From Weissella oryzae SG25 (GTDB lineage Bacteria; Bacillota; Bacilli; Lactobacillales; Lactobacillaceae), in assembly GCF_000691805.2 (NCBI RefSeq), contig NZ_DF820490.1, positions 63,375 through 127,374 on the forward strand: a DNA stretch of 64,000 bases, read 5' to 3'. Made by a program: the position numbers and the translations under genes. Of this stretch, positions 31,597-56,753 are shown in pieces (within the stretch, counting starts at the first letter, position 1; the number at the start of each line of letters is the position of its first letter). The notes under the pieces are model-generated. The model saw only the letters and a program-made list of their open reading frames with translations. It ran no database searches and was not told the DNA's origin.

Positions 31597-32304
31597 GTGG
31601 TAGAAGGTACGTTAATTTACGAAGGTAAAGCAAAGCAATTATATACAACTACAGATGACGATGTATTAAGGGTTGTGTATTTAAATCAAGCAACTGCCTT
31701 TAATGGTCAGAAAAAGGACCAAATTACTGGTAAAGGGGCGTTAAACAACGCTATTTCAACCCGAGTATTTGAATATCTGGCAGCAGCCGGTATCAAGACA
31801 CACTTTATCAAAAAAGTATCAGAAACCGAACAATTAAATCAACGCGTCTCAATTATTCCAATCGAAGTGGTTGTCCGCAATGTAATTGCAGGTTCATTTG
31901 CAAAAAAGTTTGGCCTTGAAGAAGGTGGTGTCCTAACTACACCAGTAGTCGAATTTTATTATAAGTCGGATGAATTGGCAGACCCATTTATCAACGATGA
32001 TCAGGTTTTTGCACTAGACATCGCTAGTCCAGCTGAAATTGCTTTTATTAAGGCCGAGAGTTTAAAAATTAATACCCTCCTACAAAAGTTCTGGGCGGCA
32101 ATTGATTTAAAGCTGGTTGATTTCAAAATTGAATTTGGCCGGACGAATCAAGGCACAATCATTTTAGCTGATGAAATTTCACCCGACTCAACCCGCTTGT
32201 GGGATGCACAAGGTAATCACATGGATAAAGATGTTTATCGCCGTAATTTAGGGGACCTAACCGAAACCTACACTAAGATATTAGACGCCTTGGAAGCCAA
32301 GTAA
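31597..32304 (+). CDS. purC: Phosphoribosylaminoimidazole-succinocarboxamide synthase PurC
   Basis: 235 residues; joins aspartate to CAIR to make SAICAR. Typical blocks: YEGKAKQLY, NQATAFNGQKKDQITGKG, PIEVVVRNVIAGSFAKKFG, KIEFGR and ADEISPDSTRLWD. Start codon GTG 31597 has GGAGG six bases upstream. First gene of an 11-gene purine operon (purCSQLFMNHDEK) that runs from PRPP amidation to IMP; the purEK genes lie at its end rather than at the head. Confidence 0.97.
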   Translation: MVEGTLIYEGKAKQLYTTTDDDVLRVVYLNQATAFNGQKKDQITGKGALNNAISTRVFEYLAAAGIKTHFIKKVSETEQLNQRVSIIPIEVVVRNVIAGSFAKKFGLEEGGVLTTPVVEFYYKSDELADPFINDDQVFALDIASPAEIAFIKAESLKINTLLQKFWAAIDLKLVDFKIEFGRTNQGTIILADEISPDSTRLWDAQGNHMDKDVYRRNLGDLTETYTKILDALEAK

Positions 32305-32315
32305 AGGAAAGAAAC

Positions 32316-32558
32316 ATGACAAAGGTTAAAGTTTACGTTACCTATAAAGAATCAATTTTGGACCCACAAGGGCAAGCCGTTACTGCTGCCGTTCATAAAA
32401 TGGGCTATAACTCCGTAGAAGACATTCGCATCGGTAAATATTTTGAAATTACTTTAACTGACAGTGATGCTAGTGCTGAACAAACAGTCGCCGAAATTGC
32501 TGAGAAATTATTGGCAAATCCTAATATGGAATCATATCGAGTTGAGGTGGTTGGCTAA
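32316..32558 (+). CDS. purS: Phosphoribosylformylglycinamidine synthase subunit PurS
   Basis: 80-residue small subunit bridging PurL and PurQ in FGAM synthase. Recognised by [18 protein letters not shown] and [12 protein letters not shown]. Its TAA overlaps the purQ start codon (TAATG), which implies translational coupling and matched subunit production. Confidence 0.96.
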
Positions 32559-33223
32559 TGAAATTTGCCATTATTCAATTTCCGGGATCAAATTGTGATA
32601 CCGATTTACTCTGGGCGATTAAAGATATCATGGGAGCTGAAGGTGAATTTGTCTGGCATACAGCTGACTCGCTAGCCGGCTTTGATGGGGTTTTAATTCC
32701 GGGTGGCTTCTCATATGGTGACTATTTACGCTGTGGTGCAATTGCCGCCTTCGCCAATATTATGCCTGAAATAAAACGGTTTGCTGCTGAAGGTAAGCCG
32801 GTCTTTGGGACTTGCAATGGCTTCCAGATTTTAATTGAGGCCGGCTTATTGCCTGGCTCATTAATTCAAAATAAAAGCCTAAAATTCGTTTCGAAGTGGC
32901 AAGGTCTAAAAGTTAACAATCAATCTAAATTTTCATCAAACTATGATTCAAATGAATACATCGAACTACCAATTGCCCACGGTGACGGACAATATATTGC
33001 TGATGATGCAACATTAGAGCAATTGGTCGCGAACAATCAGATTGTATTCACTTATGAAAATGGTAACCCCAATGGTTCAACCCAAGCAATTGCAGGTATT
33101 ACTAATGCAACCGGTAATGTTTTAGGTATGATGCCACACCCTGAACGGGCAATGGAAGGATTGCTTGGCAGCGATAAGGGTAAAAAAATGTTTCAAAGCA
33201 TCTTAGACAATTTTGGAGAGTAG
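32558..33223 (+). CDS. purQ: Phosphoribosylformylglycinamidine synthase glutaminase subunit PurQ
   Basis: 221-residue class I glutamine amidotransferase supplying ammonia to PurL. Motifs: FPGSNCD near the N-terminus, [13 protein letters not shown], nucleophile Cys in [10 protein letters not shown] (about 86), and the late MMPHPERA with His and Glu of the triad. It follows purS with a one-base overlap. Confidence 0.97.
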
Positions 33224-33231
33224 GTAATACC

Positions 33232-35436
33232 GTGGTTGAAATGACAGCAGAGCAAGTACGTGACTCTAAAATCTATTTGGATTGGGGCTTATCTGAGGCC
33301 GAATATTCTAAAATTAATGAAATTTTAGGCCGCCTACCTAACTATACCGAGACGGGCATGTTTGCCGGTATGTGGTCAGAACACTGTTGCTATAAAAATT
33401 CTAAACCAGTTCTACGTCGCTTCCCTTCAAAAGGGGAACAAGTTCTTATGGGACCAGGTGAGGGTGCTGGAATCGTTAATATTGGTGATGGCTTAGCAAT
33501 TGCTTTTAAAGCTGAGTCCCATAATCATCCCTCTTTTGTTGAACCTTATGAGGGGGCGGCAACTGGTTCTGGTGGTATTATTCGCGATATTTTCTCAATG
33601 GGCGCACGGCCAATTGCGATTCTGGATTCATTACGCTTTGGCCAAATTGATAATGACGAAACTAAGCATTTAATTGAGCAAATTGTGGCTGGTGTCGCTG
33701 GTTATGGTAACTGTATCGGGATTCCAACCGTCGGTGGTGAAACTAAATTTGATGAATCTTATGCACAAAATCCCTTAGTTAATGTGATGTGCCTTGGCCT
33801 GATTGAGCATTCACAAATCCAAAAGGGCGCTGCAGCTGGTGTTGGCAATTCAATTCTCTACGTTGGCGCTAAAACAGGCCGCGATGGGATTAACGGCGCT
33901 TCTTTTGCATCAAAGGAGTTTGGTGACGGTTCTGAAAAGCAACGTTCAGCCGTACAAGTTGGTGACCCATTCTTAGAGAAGCTCTTAATGGAAGCTTGTT
34001 TAGAGTTAATCCATGACCACACTGATATTGTCATTGGTATTCAGGATATGGGCGCTTGTGGTTTGTTGTCGTCTTCTGCTGAAATGGCTTCAAAAGCTGG
34101 CTTTGGCGTTACCTTAAACCTTGATTTACTCCCACAACGGGAAAGTGGCATGACACCTTATGAAATGATGCTATCTGAATCGCAAGAACGGATGCTCCTT
34201 TGCATTAAGAAAGGGGCCGAAGCTGAGGCCTTAGCCGTTTTTGCTAAGTATGATCTTGAAGCAGTTATCATGGGTGAAGTGACCGGTGACGGACAGTATA
34301 CCTTAACCCATGCTGGAGCAGTTGTTGCTAACATCCCAGCTGATGCTTTGGCCGAAGATGCACCGGTTTATTATCGCGAAATGCAAGCACCAGCCCGGCT
34401 AGCTGAATTCAAAGCAATGCAAAAATTCATTCCTGAAATTGATGATTTGACTGCAACCTTTAAAGCAATTTTGGCGCAACCAACAATCGCTTCAAAGCGT
34501 TCAATCTATGAAACTTATGACTCACGGGTAATGACTAATACCGTCGTAGCACCAGGTTCGGATGCCGCCGTCGTGCGGGTTCGTGGCACGAAAAAGGCGA
34601 TTGCCATGACGACTGATGTTAATTCACGCTTTACCTACCTTGATCCAAAGGTCGGGGGTCAAATTGCCGTTGCTGAGGCAGCGCGCAATATCGTAGCCGC
34701 TGGTGGACAACCGCTAGCCATTACGGATTGCTTAAACTTTGGTAACCCTGAAAAGCCCGAACAATTCTACGAATTTTCCGAAGCTTGTGATGGTATTTCA
34801 GAGGCCTGTGTTTTGTTTAATACGCCAGTAATTTCGGGAAATGTATCACTTTACAATGAAACTTCTGGTCAAGCCATCTTACCAACCCCAATGGTTGGTA
34901 TGGCTGGCCTAATTGAAGATGTTGCCCAGATTACCACGCTTGCTTTTAAGGACGCTGGTGACGCAATTTATTTGCTTGGTGCAACTGCTGATGATTTTGC
35001 TGGTTCCGAGATTCAAAAAATGCAAACCGGTACTATTAACGGCGCACTGAACTTTGATTTACAGGCTGAATTAGCGAATCAAAAAACTGTCTTGACGGCC
35101 ATTAAAACTGGTTTGATTGCTTCGGCTCATGACCTTTCCGAAGGTGGTCTAGCCGTTGCCTTGGCCAACAGTGCTTTAGCTGGTGACTTAGGAATCGACG
35201 TTGATTTTGCTGGTAGTCCCGCCCAACTCTTTGCGGAAAGCCAAGGACGCTTTCTTCTATCAGTTAAGCCTGAAAATGTTGCCGCTTTCGAAAGCCTTGC
35301 ACCAACTGCGCAGTATTTAGGGGCAGTTACTGCGGATAATCATTTCCAACTTACAGCTGAGGATGCAGCAATTGACTTACCATTGGCTGAAGTTGAGGCA
35401 ATCTTTGAAGGAGCTATCCCATGCCTTATGAAATAA
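33232..35436 (+). CDS. purL: Phosphoribosylformylglycinamidine synthase subunit PurL
   Basis: 734-residue ATP-dependent catalytic subunit of FGAM synthase, the small Gram-positive form that needs PurS and PurQ. Blocks: [52 protein letters not shown], and [14 protein letters not shown]. The GTG at 33232 is taken as the start; an ATG three codons later (33241) is the alternative. The 3' end overlaps purF by 16 bases. Confidence 0.97.
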
Positions 35437-36842
35437 AGTCGTTAAATGAAGAGTGTGGCTTGTTTGGCGTATGGAATTATCAAGATGCCAGTCAACTAAC
35501 CTTCTTTGGGCTACACGCCCTCCAACATCGCGGGCAAGAGGGTGCGGGGATTGTTGCTAATAACAACGGACAGTTAAAGCAACATCGTGGTCTTGGTCTA
35601 GTTACCGAAGTCTTTAAGCACCAAGCAACACTAGCTGACTTAGCCGGGCAGGCAGCGATTGGCCACGTTCGTTATGCAACGGCTGGTTCAGCCTCGGTTA
35701 ATAATGTGCAACCATTCTGTTTTAACTTTCAAAATGGTGGCGTTGCCTTAGCCCATAACGGAAATTTAACTAATGCTACGACCTTACGCCAAACATTAGA
35801 AAATAACGGAGCGATTTTTTCTTCTGATTCTGATTCAGAAATTTTAATGCACCTAATTCAACGGAGCACTGCTACAACCTTTATCGACCGGTTAAAAGAA
35901 GCCTTGAATACCGTTAAAGGGGGCTTTGCCTATCTTTTGATGACTAGTGATGCAATGATTTGTGCTTTGGATCCAAATGGTTTTCGCCCTCTGTCGGTCG
36001 GACAAATGGCCAATGGGGCCTATGTTGTCGCTTCTGAAACTTGTGCTTTTGAAGTTGTTGGCGCTAAATACCTCTTTGACGTTCAACCGGGTGAAATTAT
36101 CATTATTAACAATGATGGGATTCAACGGACCCAATATACTGACGAAACTAACTTAACCATTTGTTCAATGGAATATATTTATTTTGCCCGTCCGGACTCA
36201 ACCATCGCTGGAGTTAATGTGCACACTGCCCGGAAACGTTCTGGTCAGATTTTAGCCCGTGAGGCAAATATTGATGCGGACATTGTAATCGGTGTACCTA
36301 ATTCATCACTATCGGCAGCCTCCGGTTATGCCGAAGCATCAGGTTTACCTTATGAGATGGGGTTAATCAAAAATCAGTACGTGGCTCGTTCCTTTATTCA
36401 GCCAACCCAAGCTTTAAGAGAACAGGCGGTCCGCATGAAATTATCGGCTGTACGTGGGGTTGTTGCTGGTAAGCGCGTGGTTATGGTTGATGATTCAATT
36501 GTGCGTGGTACAACCAGTCGCCGCATTGTTAATATGCTCAAAGAAGCTGGGGCGACTGAGGTGCACGTTGCAATTGCTAGTCCGGCGCTTAAATATCCCT
36601 GCTTCTTTGGGATTGATATTCAAGACCGGACCGAATTAATTGCCGCTACTCATAGCGTCGAAGAAATTCGGGAAATGATTGGTGCCGATTCACTAACCTA
36701 TCTATCACAAGATGGTTTGGTTGAAGCAATTGGGCATAATAACCTTTGCTTATCTTACTTTGATGGGGTTTATAATACACCGCTGTATGACTATGAAGCA
36801 GATTACTTAGCCAGCTTAGAAAAGGAAGTAGCGCATGACTGA
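35421..36842 (+). CDS. purF: Amidophosphoribosyltransferase PurF
   Basis: 473 residues; first committed enzyme, making phosphoribosylamine from PRPP and glutamine. The N-terminal 11 residues are a propeptide ahead of the nucleophile Cys12 ([10 protein letters not shown]), followed by [13 protein letters not shown], and the PRPP loop [17 protein letters not shown]. The start lies inside the end of purL; the 3' end overlaps purM by eight bases. Confidence 0.97.
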
Positions 36843-37860
36843 AAATGCTTATGCCCGCCAGGCCAATGTTGACGTTGAAGCCGGCTATGAAGTCGTGGAA
36901 CGAATAAAAAAACATGTTGCGCGGACTGAACGTTTGGGCGTGCTCGGTGGCCTTGGCAGTTTTGGTGGCATGTTTGATCTTTCAAAATTTGCCGTGCAAG
37001 AGCCGGTCCTAATTTCCGGGGCTGATGGCGTTGGCACAAAGTTATTACTGGCAATCCAAGCCGACCGCCACAACACCATTGGGATTGATGCCGTTGCAAT
37101 GTGCGTTAATGATATTGTCGCTAACGGGGCTGAACCCCTTTATTTTCTTGATTACATTGCGACGGGGAAAAATAAGCCCGCCCAAATCGAACAAATTGTA
37201 GCCGGCGTTGCTCAAGGCTGTGTGCAAGCTGGTGTCGCACTAATTGGTGGTGAAACGGCTGAAATGCCCGATATGTATGCCGAAAATGAGTATGATTTAG
37301 CTGGTTTTGCAGTTGGTTTAGCTGAAAAAAAGCAGTTAATTGATGGAAAAAAGACGGTTTTAGCTGGCGATGTCCTACTAGGGCTGCCATCTAGTGGGTT
37401 ACATTCAAATGGTTATTCACTGGTTCGTAAGATTTTTACTGATTTAGACTTAAATGTTACCTTACCTGACCTAGGACGCCCACTAATTGATGAGCTCTTA
37501 GAACCAACTAAGCTCTATGTTAAAGAATTATTACCCTTGATTCATGCGCAAAAATTACACGGCTTGGCGCATATTACTGGTGGCGGTTTTCACGAAAATA
37601 TTGCGCGAATCTTAAATGATGACCTTACCGCTGAAATTAATGAGGGGACTTGGCCAATTTTGCCAATCTTTAAAGTCCTTGAACAATATGGGGCGATTGC
37701 ACATCAGGAAATGTATGAAATTTTTAATATGGGAATCGGCATGGTCTTAGTAGTCCCAGCAAGTGAGGCTGCTCAAATCAAAGCGCAACTTGGAGCATTC
37801 GAAATTGGAAAGGTAATTACTCGGCAAAACCAGCCGGTAATTGTGAACGAACATGACTAA
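36835..37860 (+). CDS. purM: Phosphoribosylformylglycinamidine cyclo-ligase PurM
   Basis: 341-residue AIR synthetase. Family blocks: [58 protein letters not shown] and [13 protein letters not shown]. It closes the imidazole ring using ATP. Overlaps purF at its start and purN at its end by eight bases each. Confidence 0.97.
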
Positions 37861-38413
37861 TATTGCAGTATTTGCATCTGGTAACGGTAGTAACTTTGAA
37901 GTATTAGCCCAGGCATTGGGGGCTAATATTCGTTTCCTATTTACTGATCATCATGATGCCTATGTCCTAAAGCGGGCAGAGCGGTTAGGGATTCAAGCCT
38001 TTGTACCGGAACGCCAAGACTTCCCCAGTAAGACGGCCTTTGAACTAGCCATTGTAGACTTACTAAAGCAGTATGAAATCGACTTAATTTGTCTGGCAGG
38101 TTATATGCGCTTTATCGGTAAGACCATTTTTGATCACTATCCTGGTTTAATGGTCAATTTACATCCTTCCTTACTACCGGATTTTGCTGGTTCACCACAT
38201 GCCATTGATGAATCATGGCAGGCTAAAGCAGGCTTAGGGATTACCGTCCATTTCGTTGATGAAGGCATTGATACTGGCGCAATTATTCAACAAAGACCAG
38301 TTGCCTATCATGAACAGTTAGCTGACTATGAAGCAGCAATCCACGCGGCTGAGCATCAGCTTTACCCAGCCGTTGTGCAAGAACTTATTAAACAGATTTC
38401 AGATAATGCTTGA
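37853..38413 (+). CDS. purN: Phosphoribosylglycinamide formyltransferase PurN
   Basis: 186 residues; transfers formyl from 10-formyl-THF to GAR. Recognised by [22 protein letters not shown], and the catalytic [17 protein letters not shown] and [14 protein letters not shown] regions (Asn, His and Asp of the active site). It overlaps purM. Confidence 0.96.
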
Positions 38414-38439
38414 TTTGAAAACAAGATAGGAGAATTAAA

Positions 38440-39984
38440 ATGTTAAAGCGGGCCTTGATTAGTGTTTCTGATAAAACCGGGATTGTTGATTTTGCAAAAG
38501 CATTAGTGGAACAAAATGTCGAAATCATTTCAACGGGCGGCACTAAAAAAGTTTTGGATGCGGCTGGCATTAACACAGTTGCCATTGACGAAGTAACTGG
38601 CTTCCCAGAAATGATGGATGGTCGGGTAAAGACTTTGCATCCCTTAATTCATGGCGCACTGTTGGCGCGGCGGGACCTACCTAGTCATGTACAAGCCATG
38701 GCTGACCATGGTATTTTACCGATTGATTTAATCGTTGTTAATCTTTATCCCTTTAAAGAAACTTTGATGGCGGGTAAGGACCATGAAACAATTATTGAGA
38801 ACATTGATATTGGTGGCCCATCAATGCTCCGTTCAGCTGCTAAAAATCACGCCAGTGTTGCTGTGGTCGTTGACCCGGCTGATTATGCACAAGTGCTTGC
38901 TGAAGTTACCACAACTGGTGACACCACTTTAGCCTTTCGGCAACAACTAGCGGCTAAGGCTTTCCGGCATACTGCAGCTTATGATGCCTTGATTGCTGAA
39001 TATTTGACGAATAAGTTTCCGGATACAGATGCACCGGAACAGTTGACCCTTAGCTACAATCTAAAGCAGGGGCTACGTTACGGTGAGAATCCACAACAAG
39101 CCGCTAATTTTTATGAACGTGCGATACCAACTAACTATTCGATTGCGGCTTCCAAGCAACTACATGGTAAAGAGCTTTCCTTTAACAATATTCGTGATGC
39201 TGACGCTGCTATTACGATTGCCCGTGATTTTACAGATCAACCAACCGTTGTTGCCTTGAAGCATATGAACCCTTGTGGCATTGGCCAAGCAACTGATATT
39301 GAAACCGCCTGGGATTATGCCTTTGAAGCCGACCCAGTATCTATCTTTGGTGGCATCATCGTCTTAAATCGGACGGTGGATGCCGCCACGGCGACAAAGA
39401 TGAAAGCCATTTTCCTTGAAATCATCATTGCGCCAGCCTTTTCAACGGAAGCCTTGGAAATTTTGACTAAGAAGAAGAATTTACGGTTGTTGACCGTCGA
39501 TTTCTCAGCCATTTCTGCTTCTAAACAGGAAATGGCCTATACCGGTGTTTTGGGCGGTATCTTAGCACAGGACCAAGACGTAGTCAGTGAGGATGCAAGT
39601 AGCTGGACCGTCACATCAAAGGCTCAACCAACGGCCGAACAAATGAACGCCCTGAACTTTGCTTGGCGTGCCGTTAAGTTTGTTAAATCAAACGGAATTA
39701 TCGTGACGAATGAACACCAAACCCTAGGTGTTGGGGCTGGTCAAACAAATCGGGTGGGTTCAGTTAAGATTGCCCTCAATCAAGCAGCTGGGAAACTAGC
39801 CGATGCAGTCTTAGCATCAGATGCATTCTTCCCCTTTGCCGATAATATTGAAGAGATTGCCAAAGCTGGCGTGAAAGCAATCATTCAGCCAGGAGGTTCA
39901 ATTCGTGATGATGAGGTGATTGAAGCCTGTGACCGTTTTGGAATCGCGATGGTGCTAACTGGGGTGCGCCACTTCCGTCACTAA
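38440..39984 (+). CDS. purH: Bifunctional AICAR transformylase/IMP cyclohydrolase PurH
   Basis: 514 residues, the last two steps to IMP. The N-terminal cyclohydrolase domain (about 1-200) has [29 protein letters not shown] and [20 protein letters not shown]; the transformylase part has [44 protein letters not shown] and [14 protein letters not shown] lies upstream of ATG 38440. Confidence 0.97.
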
Positions 39985-40008
39985 TATATAGGCTTAGGAG
40001 AATGCAAG

Positions 40009-41250
40009 ATGAAATTTTTAGTTATCGGGTCAGGCGGGCGTGAACACGCCATTGCTAAAAAATTATTAGCAAGCCCACAAGTTAGAACGGTTTACGCTGC
40101 CCCTGGTAACCCTGGTATGCAACTTGATGGTATCGAATTAGTGCCAATTTCTGAGTTAGCCAATACTGAATTGGTGGCCTTTGCAAAAGAAGCGGCAGTT
40201 GACTTCACTTTTGTCGGACCAGAAAACGCTTTAGCCAATGGGGTTACGGATGCCTTTTTAGCTGCCAATTTGGCAATTTTTGCACCAACTAAGGCTGCAG
40301 CCGAAATTGAAAGTTCTAAGGAATTTGCGAAACAATTTATGGCTAAGTACGCAATCCCAACAGCCCACTACGCCAGTTTTACCGACTATCAAGCGGCTAA
40401 GGATTATTTAGCAGTCGTAGGCGCACCCATTGTGATTAAAGCTGATGGTCTGGCTGCCGGTAAAGGGGTTACGGTTGCTTTAGACTTAGCGACCGCCCAG
40501 CAAGCGTTAGAAAATGTCTTTACTGACGCTGATGCCCGAGTTGTGATTGAGGAATACTTAGTTGGTGAAGAATTTTCACTGTTTTCCTTTGTCCATGGTA
40601 ATAAGTTCTATCCAATGCCAATCGCGCAAGACCACAAACGAGCGCTTGATGGTGACCAGGGCGCAAACACTGGCGGAATGGGAGCCTATTCACCAGTAAA
40701 TCACATTGCGCCAGCCATGGTGCAAACGACCCTTGATACAATTGTAAAACCAGCCGTTGCTGGCTTAGTTAAAGAAGGACGTTCTTTTACAGGCATTCTC
40801 TATACCGGGGTCATTCTAACTGCGAATGGGCCAAAGGTAATCGAGTTTAATGCCCGTTTTGGCGATCCAGAGACCCAAGTGGTCTTACCACGGTTAAAGA
40901 CCGACTTAGCTCAGGTAATTATTGATTTATTAGCTGACCGTCAACTTAAACTTGCTTGGCAAGAAACCGGGGTTTCCCTAGGAGTTGTCGTTGCTAGTAA
41001 GGGTTACCCTGGTAAATATGCAACCAATATTGCCTTGCCAGTGTTCCCAGCTGATTGGGACGTTTATTATGCCGGCGTTAAAGCTGGTGCCGACGGGAAG
41101 TTGCTTAGTGCTGGTGGTCGGGTTTATTTGCTAGCAGCTGACGGGGCTGACCTTAAAGCAGCCCAAGCAGATGTATATGCCAAACTAGCGCAATTAGAAC
41201 AACCTGACATGTTTTACCGCCATGATATTGGTGCGAAGGGAGTTAAATAA
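40009..41250 (+). CDS. purD: Phosphoribosylamine--glycine ligase PurD
   Basis: 413-residue ATP-grasp ligase that adds glycine to phosphoribosylamine. Motifs: [62 protein letters not shown] and [19 protein letters not shown]. Its last base A is the first base of the purE start codon (TAATG). Confidence 0.97.
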
Positions 41251-41735
41251 TGGCTGATATTGCAATTATTATGGGTTCTATCTCAGATTGGGCAACTATG
41301 GAAAAAGCTGCCACAATCCTGACTGAATTTGGCCTTGATTTTGATAAAAAAATTGTTTCCGCACACCGCACACCGGACTTGATGTTTGATTTTGCTAGCA
41401 CCGCCTATGCTAATGGTTATAAATTAATCATCGCTGGTGCAGGTGGTGCTGCGCATCTACCCGGGATGGTTGCTGCCATTGCGACAGTGCCAGTTATTGG
41501 TGTCCCCATTGAATCCCATGCTTTATCTGGTGTTGACTCACTGTATTCAATTGTACAAATGCCTGCCGGTGTACCGGTTGCAACCATGGCGATTGGTGAG
41601 GCCGGTGCCAAAAATGCGGCATTGTATGCCGTTGAAATGCTGGCCATGAATCAACCAGACCTACATGCTAAATTAATTGCTTACCGGGCAAACGCGGCTG
41701 ATAAGGTTGCTGCTTCAGAAGCGGGGTTATATTAA
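41250..41735 (+). CDS. purE: 5-(carboxyamino)imidazole ribonucleotide mutase PurE
   Basis: 161-residue class I Pur[27 protein letters not shown] (catalytic His) and [16 protein letters not shown] mark the active site; [33 protein letters not shown] follows. It converts N5-CAIR to CAIR. Coupled to purD by a one-base overlap and to purK two bases later. Confidence 0.97.
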
Positions 41736-41737
41736 TC

Positions 41738-42829
41738 ATGCCAAAAACAATTGGAATTATTGGTGGCGGTCAGTTAGGCCAGATGATGGCAATTTCAGCG
41801 CAATATATGGGCCATAAAGTCATCACTTTGGATCCTAACCCAACTTGTTCAGCCGCAAAGGTTTCTGATGCAATGATTGTTGCTGACTATGATGATGTGG
41901 CTGCGTTAGAACAATTAGCCCAGCAAGCTGATTTACTCACCTACGAATTTGAAAATGTATCGGCGCAAGCTTTAACGACGGTTCAACCAAGCGTCGCAAT
42001 TCCACAGGGCTTGAAGTTATTAACAATCACGCAAAATCGGCGCTTAGAAAAAGAGTTCCTACAAAGAATCGACATTCCAATCGCTCCATATCAGAACATC
42101 ACAAGTCCTAGTGATTTACCAACACATGTCGAGAAAGTTCAGTATCTTAAAACTGTGATGTTTGGCTATGATGGGCATGGTGAGGTCGTTTTGCGCTCAG
42201 ATACTGATTTAACAGCAGCTAAGGCCATGGCCCAAGAAATTAACTGTGTTTTGGAAGACCAAGTTACCTTCGACCGCGAAATTTCCGTGATTGTCGCTGG
42301 CAATGGCCAGCAATATGTCACTTTCCCAATCGCTGAAAATGAACATCGTCATTCGATTTTACATCGAACAATTGCTCCAGCTCGCATTGACTCAACGACT
42401 GCGCAAACAGCTAAAGCGCTTGCTTTAAAAATTGCCCATGTGCTACAACTGGCAGGAACGATGTGCATTGAGATGTTCTTGCGAGCCGATGGCACAATCT
42501 ATGTTAATGAATTGGCACCACGCCCCCATAACTCTGGACACTATACAATTGAAGCCTGTGACTTTTCACAGTTTGATTTACACATCAAGGGCATATTAGG
42601 GGAGCCATTAAGCGAGCCACTCTTGCTACGTCCAGCGATAATGATAAATGTCTTGGGCCAACATCAAGCGAGCATGGCTGAACTACGCCTAGCGCAACCA
42701 AGCTGGCACATTCATGACTATGGCAAGAGTGAAGCCAAAGAAAATCGTAAAATGGGCCACGTAACCATTTTGACTGAAGAAATTGCTACCACTTTAGCCA
42801 CAATCAAATTAAGCAAAATTTGGGACTAA
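41738..42829 (+). CDS. purK: N5-carboxyaminoimidazole ribonucleotide synthase PurK
   Basis: 363-residue ATP-grasp enzyme that makes N5-CAIR from AIR, bicarbonate and ATP. GIIGGGQLGQMMAISAQYMGH opens the protein, DLLTYEFENVSAQAL and KTVMFGYDGHGEVV follow, and ELAPRPHNSGHYTIEAC holds the metal/ATP-binding residues. Last gene of the operon, ending at a strong terminator. purB, needed twice in the pathway, is not in this window. Confidence 0.96.
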   Translation: MPKTIGIIGGGQLGQMMAISAQYMGHKVITLDPNPTCSAAKVSDAMIVADYDDVAALEQLAQQADLLTYEFENVSAQALTTVQPSVAIPQGLKLLTITQNRRLEKEFLQRIDIPIAPYQNITSPSDLPTHVEKVQYLKTVMFGYDGHGEVVLRSDTDLTAAKAMAQEINCVLEDQVTFDREISVIVAGNGQQYVTFPIAENEHRHSILHRTIAPARIDSTTAQTAKALALKIAHVLQLAGTMCIEMFLRADGTIYVNELAPRPHNSGHYTIEACDFSQFDLHIKGILGEPLSEPLLLRPAIMINVLGQHQASMAELRLAQPSWHIHDYGKSEAKENRKMGHVTILTEEIATTLATIKLSKIWD

Positions 42830-47819: not shown

Positions 47820-50800
47820 ATGAAAACTAGTAAGCAAAAGCTAACTTATCGGGTTAGTCATATCAATAAAGAACAGGGAACTGTTCGGTCTGCGCAAAAG
47901 TCAAAGCTACTTAAGATGAAACACTTAGCTTTGATTGGAAGTTTGGTTTTAGTTGGTGCTAGTATCCCAAATGTGGGGGCAGCATTTATGAATCATAATA
48001 ATGTTTCAGCTGCTGTTTTGGATATAAATCTGTTAAGCAATATGGCTGTCAATAATGACAGTGGTACAACAACGACTAACCGGCTTCAAGCTGGTGAACA
48101 ACGCAATGTAAACTTTACGATTTCTGGTACGACACCGATTGGTGTTTCTGCCCTTAATGGAAAACGCTATGCTGCAGTAACTGTCCCAAGTGAATTACGT
48201 GGTGCAGTTACTGCAAATGGTAATACCGTAACAACTACTAACATGACGATTGATTTTAATAAAATTTCTAGTCTGAATGAATTAATCTCAGTCAGTGATA
48301 GTTTGGCAACGAAAATCACTGAAATTCTTGATGGTAGTCTGGGGGATATTTCAGGCGTAAACTTTGATACGACTGACTTGTATAAAAACTTAAACTTGCT
48401 AAAGAACGTTCAAAGTATCGGTGGTGCAAGTTTCAATTCTGCCACGACGGTTAATAGTGACGGTAGCATTGTTTCAGCTGAATTAGATGATGGTTTAGGT
48501 AGTATTTTGAGCCAAAACTTAATTACAATTCTAAATTCGCTAGAAACAGCAATTAACAACCTACATGCAACACCAAAGAATTCACTTAATCCAATCCAAG
48601 TTACTTTGGCTGAGGCTATTAATGCAGCATTAGTCGTTCCAAAGGGGCTAGTTAATACGGCAATTACTGGTGTTTTGACACCATTAGTCAATGGAACTGG
48701 TGACATCACTAATGAATTAGTTGATGCTGCTGTTCTTGGTGATACATCAATCGTCGTGCCTACACAAATTAAAACACCTAGTGATTTAAGTGGTAGTTTA
48801 GATGCACGATTCGTTGGTGCTGCCGTACAAACAGATCTACTAAGTATTGATATTCTAAATACATCTGATAGCGATACTTTTGTCTACTTTGGTAAGGAAG
48901 CCTTACCAAGTGCGCCAATCGTTGATAATGTAGCTGGTAACTCAACGGATGGTTATACTGTCACTGGTACAGCTGACCCTAATACAACGGTTAAAATCTA
49001 TGACAAGGATAATAACGAAGTTGGTACTGCCCAAACTGGCGCTGATGGTAAGTACACCATTACATTACCTGCTAGTGTGGGTGAGAAGGCTAACCTTACA
49101 GCCACAGCGACTGATGCCGCTGGCAATGTAAGTACGCCAACTGACTTCATGACTCCAGCCGATGATGATAAGGTAGCACCTAGTGCACCTATCGTTGATA
49201 ATGTAACTGGTAACTCGACAGATGGTTATACTGTCACTGGTACGGCTGAGCCAAACTCAACGGTTAAAATCTATGACAAGGATAATAACGAAGTTGGTAC
49301 TGCCCAAGCTGGCGCTGATGGTAAGTACACCATTACACTACCAGCTAGCGTCGGTGAGAAGGCTAACCTTACAGCCACAGCGACTGATGCCGCTGGCAAT
49401 GTAAGTACGCCAACTGACTTCATGACTCCAGCCGATGATGATAAGGTAGCACCTAGTGCACCGATTGTTGATAACGTAACTGGTAACTCGACAGATGGTT
49501 ATACTGTTACTGGTACAGCTGAGCCAAACTCAACGGTTAAAATCTATGACAAGGATAATAACGAAGTTGGTACTGCCCAAGCTGGCGCTGATGGTAAGTA
49601 CACCATTACATTACCTGCTAGTGTGGGTGAGAAGGCTAACCTTACAGCCACAGCGACTGATGCCGCTGGTAATGTAAGTACGCCAACTGACTTCATGACT
49701 CCAGCCGATGATGATAAGGTAGCGCCTAGTGCACCTATCGTTGATAACGTAACTGGTAACTCGACAGACGGTTATACTGTTACTGGTACAGCTGAGCCAA
49801 ACTCAACGGTTAAAATCTATGACAAGGATAATAACGAAGTTGGTACTGCCCAAGCTGGCGCTGATGGTAAGTACACCATTACACTACCAGCTAGTGTCGG
49901 CGAGAAGGCTAACCTTACAGCTACTGCGACTGACGCCGCTGGTAATGTAAGTACGCCAACTGACTTCATGACTCCGGCCGATGATGATAAGGTAGCGCCT
50001 AGTGCACCTATCGTTGATAACGTAACTGGTAACTCAACTGACGGTTATACTGTTACTGGTACGGCCGAGCCTGGTTCAACCGTTAACATCTACGATAAGG
50101 ACCACAAGGTTGTCGGAACCGCCCAAGCTGGCGCTGATGGTAAGTACACCATTACACTACCAGGTAGTGTCGGCGAGAAGGCTAACCTTACAGCTACTGC
50201 GACTGATGCCGCTGGTAATGTAAGTACGCCAACTGATTTCATGACTCCAGCCGATGATGATAAGGTAGCACCTAGTGCACCAATCGTTGATAGCGTAACT
50301 GGTAACTCAACTAACGGTTATACTGTTACTGGTACGGCAGAGCCTGGTTCAACCGTTAATATCTACGATAAGGACCACAAGGTTGTCGGAACCGCCCAAG
50401 CTGGCGCTGATGGTAAGTACACCATTACATTACCTGCTAGTGTGGGTGAGAAGGCTACCCTTACAGCCACAGCGACTGACGCTGCTGGTAACATGAGTGC
50501 CGCAACTAATCTCATGACTCCGGCCGACGAAGACAAGGTGGCACCTAGTGCACCAATCGTTGATAGCGTAACTGGTAACTCAACTGACGGTTATACCGTT
50601 ACTGGTACAGCTGAGCCTGGTTCAACGGTTAACGTTTACGATAAGGACAATAATGTAGTTGGTACTGCTCAAGCCGGGTCAGACGGTAAGTACACTATTA
50701 CACTACCTGGTAGTGTTGGTGAAAAGGCAACTTTGACCGTTACGGCAACTGACGCTGCTGGTAATGTAAGTGCAGCTACTAGCTTCACTACACCTGCTAA

Positions 50801-54165: not shown

Positions 54166-54345
54166 ATGGAAGAAAAGTTGATTCAATTAAAAATTTCAGC
54201 AGAAACTAAATTAAAAGCTGATGAAATTCTAAAACAACACGGGCTTTCAACGCAAGCAGCGGTTAAAATGTTTTTAACGCAGATTGCTAATACTGGGCGT
54301 AGTCCTTTTGATGGTATCTTTTATAAGGACAGCAGTAAGCCTTAA
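54166..54345 (+). CDS. RelB/DinJ-type antitoxin without a partner toxin
   Basis: 59 residues. LIQLKISAETKLKADEILKQ (ribbon and first helix) and HGLSTQAAVKMFLTQIANTGRSPFD (second helix and conserved end) are typical of RelB/DinJ ribbon-helix-helix antitoxins. Normally a YafQ/RelE toxin gene overlaps or follows within a few bases; here the next genes are an SMR transporter downstream and DUF378 upstream, and the short downstream region has no toxin frame. GAGGGGTGG precedes ATG 54166. A solitary antitoxin or a DNA-binding protein that now regulates its neighbours is possible. Confidence 0.82.
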   Translation: MEEKLIQLKISAETKLKADEILKQHGLSTQAAVKMFLTQIANTGRSPFDGIFYKDSSKP

Positions 54346-54843: not shown

Positions 54844-54889
54844 AATCACCAATCAATTCATTTAACTTAATTACTAATTAAATATTTTT

Positions 54890-54959
54890 TTGCAGATATA
54901 GCGTACGGAAAATGGCCGTACAGTTTCTACCACCAACCAAAAGAGGTGACTATCCGCAA
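54890..54959 (+). promoter_or_regulatory. Purine riboswitch aptamer, guanine/hypoxanthine type
   Basis: P1 pairs 54890-54898 with 54951-54959 (one A-C mismatch). P2 GTACGG/CCGTAC encloses loop AAAATGG; J2/3 is the canonical GTTTCTACC; P3 CACC/GGTG encloses a loop with CC that can kiss the GG of loop 2. J3/1 is ACT, so the specificity position (74) is C: guanine/hypoxanthine class, not adenine. J1/2 reads TAG in place of the usual TAA/TAT. Confidence 0.9.
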
Positions 54960-54979
54960 GTGCTTTTAGCTATTTAAAG

Positions 54980-55019
54980 GGCATTTGTCGATTAATCCAA
55001 CCGACAAATGTCTTTTTTT
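54980..55019 (+). terminator. Riboswitch expression platform terminator
   Basis: GGCATTTGTCG (54980-54990) pairs with CGACAAATGTC (55002-55012), followed by seven T, 60 bases before the ade start: the layout of a ligand-induced transcription OFF switch. Confidence 0.9.
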
Positions 55020-55080
55020 ATTTCTAATTTTTAATTAGCTCAATTAAACCAACCAATAATTAATAGAGAAGTGAGAGATT

Positions 55081-56753
55081 ATGATTGAAGTTGACTATCA
55101 TCTAAAAAATGCCTATTTCCTTGATGTTTTTACTAAAACATTCATAAAAACTGAGCTATGGATTAAAGGAACTCAAATTATTTTCCGTGGACGTTCGAAG
55201 CAATATTTAGCAAAAGAAACATTTGATTTGGGTGGACGGTATGTAGCTCCTGGTCTAATTGATGCTCATATGCATATTGAGTCTTCATTACTTACGCCGT
55301 CTGAATTAGGCAAGATTTTAGTTAAACATGGCGTAACCCGCGCTTTTGCTGATCCACATGAAATTGCCTCTGTAAGTGGTGAATCTGGCATCCATTATAT
55401 GATTGAGGAAGCACGCCAAGCGCCCATTCATTTCCATTATATGTTGCCTTCATCAGTACCAGCGGCTCCATTCGAACGGACTGGTGCAATCTTAGATGCA
55501 GAAAGTCTACGAACTTTTTATCAATATCCAGAGGTACATGGCTTAGCTGAGGTGATGGACTATCCAGCCGTGGCTAACGAAAATCCTGAGAAAATCCTGA
55601 TATGTTAGAAAAAATTGCCGATGCCCAAAAGGCTGGCCGCCATGTTGATGGGCATGGTGCCGGTTTGAATCCTGAGCAGTTGGCTGTTTATCGAGCTGTT
55701 GGTATTGATACTGATCATGAAGCTCATTCTACAGAAATGGCCCTTGAACGTTTGAATGCAGGTATGCGCGTCTTTATTCGTGAAGGAACCGTTGAACGTG
55801 ATGAGCTAGCAATTTTACCGGCGGTTACATCCTCCAATGCTGAGCGTTTTGCTTTTTGTACAGATGATAAAAACGTTACTGACCTGTTATTAGAGGGTTC
55901 GATTGATTACAACGTTAATTTAGCAGTATCAAAAGGGCTGGCTATGGAAACCGCCCTCAAAATGGCTTCCTATGGAGCTGCTCAAGCACATCATTTGCAA
56001 AATGTTGGAGCCTTAGCTGCTGGCTATGTCGCTGATTTAGTTGTTTTTGATAGTTTGCAACATTTCTCTGCCCAAGAGGTCATGGTTGCCGGTCAGTGGG
56101 TGACGGAAAAACAAACCACTAAGCCATTAGCATTTGCACCACAAGCCATTAATATCAAACCACAACTAAGTGATTTTGAATTACCGTTAATTAACGGTGT
56201 AGCCCATGTGATTGGGATTGAACCAAACCACATTACAACAACTCACTTAATTGAAGAAGTACCACAAAATACAACAGGTAAATTTGTTGCTAATCAAACA
56301 TATGCTAAAATAGCTGTTTTTGAGCGCTATCATCAATTGGGGTACGGGTTAGGTATTATTAAGGGCTTTAAATTACGTGGTGGCGCAATTGCAGCCACTG
56401 TCGCTCATGACTCACACAATCTAATCGTTGCTGGTCATAATGATTCTGCAATGTATACAGCCGCAAATCATTTGCGTGAGCTTGGCGGAGGAATGGTTGT
56501 GGTTGAAGATGACGGTACAATTACCAGCTTGCCACTGCCAATTGCCGGTCTAATGTCAGACCAGCCCTATTCCTTAGTTGCTGAGCAGGTTACGACTTTA
56601 ATGGCTGCCTTCAAAAGAATATCGACGGTCGAGTTTGACCCATTCCTAACTTTATCATTTATGGCACTACCAGTAATTCCATCGCTAAAGATTACTGACC
56701 AGGGTTTATTTGATTTTGAGAAATTTACTTTCATTAACATAAATGCCCAATAA
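55081..56753 (+). pseudogene. ade: Adenine deaminase, frameshifted by an 11-bp tandem duplication
   Basis: Two frames together make one adenine deaminase. The first (55081-55608, 175 residues) has the metal motif APGLIDAHMHIESSLL and FADPHEIASVSG; the second (from about 55601 to 56753) has VDGHGAGLNPEQLAVY, GIDTDHEAHSTEMALERLNAGM, FCTDDKNVTDLL and AHDSHNLIVAGHNDSAM. The break is an exact repeat of GAAAATCCTGA (55579-55589 and 55590-55600); without one copy the frame reads NENPDMLEKI and gives 553 residues, the family size. The enzyme converts adenine to hypoxanthine for salvage. As written, no full protein is made unless the repeat slips back or the second half starts at the ATG at 55602. Confidence 0.93.
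55579..55600 (+). repeat. 11-bp tandem duplication in ade
   Basis: Two exact, adjacent copies of GAAAATCCTGA. Length not a multiple of three, hence the frameshift. Confidence 0.97.

Follow-up and report, generated by a model that had tools for sequence, protein, structure and literature searches.

The closest described systems are genes that are switched off by a duplication within their own coding sequence. Reversible intragenic duplications, with phase variation reported, are described for the pneumococcal capsule genes cap3A, cap8E and tts (cited in PMC4243769), and in fission yeast short tandem duplications mediated by microhomology lead to a premature stop and can revert (reviewed in PMC13207564). 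For adenine deaminase itself a solved relative exists, PDB 3nqb (Adenine deaminase 2). At the level of titles and abstracts, a literature search found nothing on a Weissella adenine deaminase, on a lactobacillar ade pseudogene, or on phase variation of ade. Weissella oryzae SG25T, a type strain, is a food-associated lactic acid bacterium, and its genome assembly comprises 2,129,476 bases in 70 contigs. The window analysed here is the whole stretch of 64,000 nucleotides taken from one of these contigs.

Organization of the ade locus

The adenine deaminase gene (ade) of W. oryzae SG25 is laid out in two overlapping frames downstream of a purine riboswitch, with the following features:

54874-54972, plus strand: purine riboswitch aptamer (RF00167; 53.9 bits, gathering score 37, E 2.1e-06)
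54976-55019, plus strand: 15-bp hairpin with a terminal U run; candidate intrinsic terminator for the riboswitch (from fold and sequence)
55081-55608, plus strand: 5' frame of ade, 175 aa, N-terminal half-barrel with foreign final residues (TIGR01178 positions 1-163; PF01979)
55579-55600, plus strand: exact 11-bp tandem duplication, GAAAATCCTGA x 2 (tandem-repeat scan; 0 matching bases flanking its ends)
55602-56753, plus strand: 3' frame of ade, 383 aa, starting at the native Met of PDMLEKI (TIGR01178 positions 164-551; PF13382, PF01979)

The original prediction that an exact 11-bp tandem splits ade is borne out by the repeat scan, in which the unit lies in two gapless copies (period 11, 2.0 copies, 100% match), and by the profile search, in which the two ORFs together run along the 552 positions of TIGR01178 and meet at 163/164. 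Scored separately, they reach 186.5 and 347.6 bits, both below the curated cut-off of 472.5 bits, and the gene as split gives no full-length match above it. The amidohydrolase domain is shared out between the two ORFs, the adenine deaminase C-terminal domain is found in the 3' ORF, and the 3' frame overlaps the stop codon of the 5' frame. With the intact relative L003 as reference, residue 172 of the N-terminal half corresponds without gaps to residue 179, and residue 1 of the C-terminal half to residue 178, which amounts to exactly 11 surplus bases in the W. oryzae gene. By arithmetic, (1673-11)/3-1, the joined gene minus one copy has 553 residues, in agreement with the length predicted for the restored protein. 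A profile search of the whole genome found no second copy of ade; apart from the two halves, a single weak match is listed (E 5.4e-4). Further upstream, a RelB-type antitoxin ORF (PF04221) is located at 54166-54342 of the window, with no adjoining toxin-like ORF of at least 80 aa in the ORF list.

The break was placed on an AlphaFold2 model of the intact relative L031 (mean pLDDT 93.6). It maps to residues 170-172, where helix 170-181 begins, beyond strand 153-159, and by our own count would lie between barrel strands 4 and 5. A single active site would require conserved residues from each of the two halves. Some protein could be made from both halves, as the 3' frame begins with a native Met next to where the 5' frame stops.

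Rarity of the tandem duplication

To estimate how often such repeats are expected, 100 sequences of 64 kb were simulated with a first-order Markov model that had the base-step frequencies of the window; exact tandems with a period of 11 to 200 occurred at a mean of 0.07 per sequence. By itself, the 11-bp repeat is uncommon, not impossible. A chance repeat was rejected because the tandem sits at the sole point where the two ade frames meet, and by the exact 11-base excess over the relatives. Surface-repeat arrays with periods of 36, 42 and 273 bp, all multiples of three, aside, the 143,210-base contig contains no further exact out-of-frame tandem with a period of 10 to 200; the 273-bp array, with 6.8 copies, occupies positions 48905-50771 of the window.

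Approximately 0.96 Mb of comparison DNA, a set of partly overlapping loci that excludes the window and genome G021 (described below), contains five exact out-of-frame tandems with a period of 10 to 300. None of the five breaks a gene according to a filter demanding 60 codons on each side, which does not flag the duplication of G021 either; with this count, a general excess of such tandems was rejected.

Damaged ade genes were also followed across the family. Sixteen genomes, picked by eye among the matches listed, were re-searched; five had open full-length ade matches and were left out of the tandem scan, while the other eleven had either an interrupted or partial ade (seven genomes) or one stop within a match above the cut-off (four). 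The 16 loci from these eleven genomes, scanned together with locus L142 of genome G022, contain no exact tandem with a period of at least 10. A more distant ade, in genome G331 (L197 and L188, on G331:C2), is split at model positions 176/178, near the W. oryzae break, and no exact tandem with a period of at least 10 was found in these two loci.

Age of the disruption

Both halves of the W. oryzae gene were aligned with 34 relatives, of which 27 were kept after dropping seven rows (L040, L042, L055, L056, L058, L060, L061) that are at least 93% identical to a retained one. At the columns invariant in these 27 relatives, W. oryzae ade shows no change in 42 for the N-terminal half and none in 92 for the C-terminal half (0/134 in total). 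Under the same treatment the relatives themselves gave 0 to 4 changes in the N-terminal and 0 to 8 in the C-terminal half, with 15 of the 27 giving none in either. The retained residues include those of the metal site, whose roles as metal ligands we assume. The gene thus appears free of decay beyond the duplication, and the 134 unchanged columns argue for a young break and against an old, decayed gene, which was ruled out. We estimate that neutral decay would probably be visible once it exceeded about 1% at sites that change an amino acid. The view that the event is recent, with both halves and the riboswitch otherwise intact, has therefore held, the latter through the TIGR01178 and RF00167 matches. 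Among the redundant rows left out of this test, L042, the ade of Leuconostoc pseudomesenteroides, has an open frame of 419 aa and perhaps carries another break.

The riboswitch and the history of the ade unit

The covariance-model match upstream of ade exceeds the gathering score of RF00167 and places the element in this family; we take it to be of the guanine class, by the C in GACUAU. The fold of positions 54880-55030 has a z-score of -3.27. An Rfam scan of the loci of 15 named relatives found a purine riboswitch in two (L031 and L054, both W. confusa); the scan also found one in L143 of genome G019, and none in L141 of G021. In L031, L054 and L143 the riboswitch stands 5' of an IMPDH-type gene (the IMPDH domain was checked for L031), with ade further downstream. 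W. oryzae possesses two related purine riboswitches, one directly before ade and one before its IMPDH-type gene pair, which is located on another contig (riboswitch at L204:1317-1415, G000:C2), and the leader of ade resembles in sequence that of the pair. Given the position of the riboswitch in the three other loci, ade seems to have relocated in W. oryzae together with a copy of the leader, and to have formed a separate unit under riboswitch control before the break arose.

Distribution of ade in the genus Weissella

Among 28 genomes of the genus, the profile search found an intact ade, that is, an uninterrupted gene above the cut-off, in 12, including W. ceti WS08 (G026); three (G011, G020 and G023) have a distant full-length type alone, which scores below the cut-off, ten have no ade, and three have a broken gene (W. 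oryzae SG25, G021 and G022). Nine of the ten genomes without ade gave short weak matches only, presumably to other amidohydrolases, and G009 gave no match. To judge from these genome sequences, ade is lost often in the genus, and its absence or breakage in many Weissella fits dispensability.

G022 retains a short remnant of the gene, situated at the edge of a contig and apparently with an internal deletion. In G021, assembled as a single contig with ade on the minus strand, an exact 59-bp out-of-frame tandem (L141:666-786; a run of 62, hence 3 bp of microhomology) shifts the frame ahead of the conserved C-terminus. Up to the repeat, the open frame differs at one of 123 invariant columns, so this break looks young as well. 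Since the 11-bp and 59-bp duplications lie at different positions in ade, they are independent. A tandem duplication is thus found in two of the three broken ade genes of the genus, which is suggestive in a very small sample.

Purine metabolism

The window also carries a set of de novo purine genes:

31597-42829, plus strand: purC, purQ, purL, purF, purM, purN, purH, purD, purE and purK (best NCBIfam match of each above cut-off)

All ten of the encoded proteins are intact, and apt (adenine phosphoribosyltransferase) is present elsewhere in the genome. From this gene content, W. oryzae would be expected to synthesize purines de novo and to use adenine via AMP without Ade, and the loss of Ade should mainly close the step from adenine to hypoxanthine. 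With the ten pur genes and apt in place, the growth test suggested originally, with adenine as the only source of purines, would discriminate poorly and be a poor readout of ade in SG25. A genome search of G021 found no purH match, and the loss of Ade may therefore matter more there.

Origin and meaning of the two-copy allele

We consider it quite likely that the ade gene of SG25 is a recent loss-of-function allele, its two-copy form being known from one draft assembly. Replication or repair would have copied an 11-bp stretch of a working, riboswitch-controlled gene twice in tandem; the frame shift would stop translation after 175 residues, and the enzyme, cut between barrel strands 4 and 5 by our count, would lose its activity. 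The strain presumably tolerates this loss through its de novo purine genes and adenine phosphoribosyltransferase. Like any exact tandem, the repeat could collapse back via slippage, so that the null allele would be reversible in principle.

The main rival is an assembly error, in which two contig or read-merge ends sharing an 11-base overlap were joined without collapsing it and left an exact tandem. For the SG25T draft, published with 2,129,476 bp and 70 scaffolds, 454 contigs and FLASH-merged Illumina reads were assembled with Velvet/Columbus, followed by Opera scaffolding and GapFiller (PMC4110764). A small error is possible in such a gap-filled, multi-step assembly of 454 and deep Illumina data, the lack of terminal microhomology (a run of 11 for a period of 11) is what such joining would give, and the gene is otherwise undecayed. 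Yet the depth is very high, with 557,004,694 paired-end reads, and according to the paper the gaps that were closed had been checked manually (PMC4110764); the 143-kb contig has just this one exact out-of-frame tandem in the period range 10 to 200; and ade of the single-contig genome G021, as assembled, shows the same class of lesion. A scaffold gap at the site was also considered; the sequence of the ade region contains none, the two N runs of the contig lying elsewhere. On balance we regard an assembly error as unlikely.

The original prediction went further and proposed that ade could act as an on/off contingency locus in adenine salvage, as tandem copies can revert by slippage. Such a locus would duplicate and collapse often enough for populations to contain on and off cells, and this would be selected. 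The tandem is exact and out of frame (11 mod 3 = 2), and, as in an off allele of the cap3A type, ade holds an exact non-triplet tandem inside an ORF. The reversible duplications known from capsule genes of the pneumococcus (cited in PMC4243769) and from fission yeast (reviewed in PMC13207564) make such a mechanism plausible for ade. Simple-sequence contingency loci, however, carry tracts of numerous short units, within the gene or upstream of it, whereas ade has just two short units of 11 bp, and the tandem-repeat scan found no longer array there. Moreover, a single allelic state has been seen, from one genome of the species; ten of the 28 genus genomes lack ade, as for a dispensable gene; and the loci scanned from eleven other family genomes with an interrupted, partial or stop-bearing ade match have no exact tandem of period at least 10. 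With two units, one species genome, and a gene missing or broken in many Weissella, this part of the prediction is unsupported, and we judge a selected contingency locus very unlikely. The independent 59-bp tandem of G021 keeps a weak form of the idea alive. A reading in which Weissella ade would be repeatedly toggled by the duplication and collapse of exact out-of-frame repeats (11 bp, 59 bp), and not lost for good, is likewise very unlikely.

Also very unlikely is a split enzyme, in which coupled translation would yield half-barrel chains able to pair up as an active deaminase. The break at a loop/helix boundary after barrel strand 4, by our count in the L031 model, the start of the 3' ORF at a native Met overlapping the first stop, and the retention of all 134 invariant residues tested are compatible with it. 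The internal ATG, however, is preceded by weak Shine-Dalgarno pairing (-2.7, against -5.0 at the ade start and -6.3 to -10.3 at five other genes), and the first chain ends in foreign residues. The more distant G331 gene is split near the same model position, but we know of no case in which a split is functional. Programmed -1 frameshifting within the second copy, giving a full-length protein with four extra residues, is scarcely credible: the C-terminal frame is open upstream to 55590, and a shift of -1 anywhere from there to 55605 would bring the two frames together, but inspection by eye of the codons before the stop (GAG AAA ATC CTG ATA TGT TAG) reveals no canonical slippery heptamer, no long A/T run and hence no canonical frameshift signal.

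If the allele is real, a published type strain would hold a gene under riboswitch control that has only just been disabled, and the genus would offer a clear example of repeated loss of one enzyme. Two independent tandem duplications in the ade genes of two genomes would make the natural reversibility of these losses testable; otherwise, the locus is an ordinary young pseudogene.

Comparison with known systems

W. oryzae ade agrees with TIGR01178 and PDB 3nqb in sequence and in domain order across both halves; it differs from them in being divided over two frames, with each ORF alone below the family cut-off. The pneumococcus presumably belongs to the same order as W. oryzae. Like the fission yeast duplications (reviewed in PMC13207564), the W. 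oryzae repeat is a short coding-region tandem that leads to a premature stop, and the 59-bp case of G021 has 3 bp of microhomology, whereas the 11-bp repeat is without microhomology and fission yeast belongs to another domain of life. The pneumococcal capsule genes (cited in PMC4243769) differ in that phase variation is reported for them, while ade is a metabolic gene; in both, a duplication within a coding gene turns the gene off, and in the pneumococcus this is reversible.
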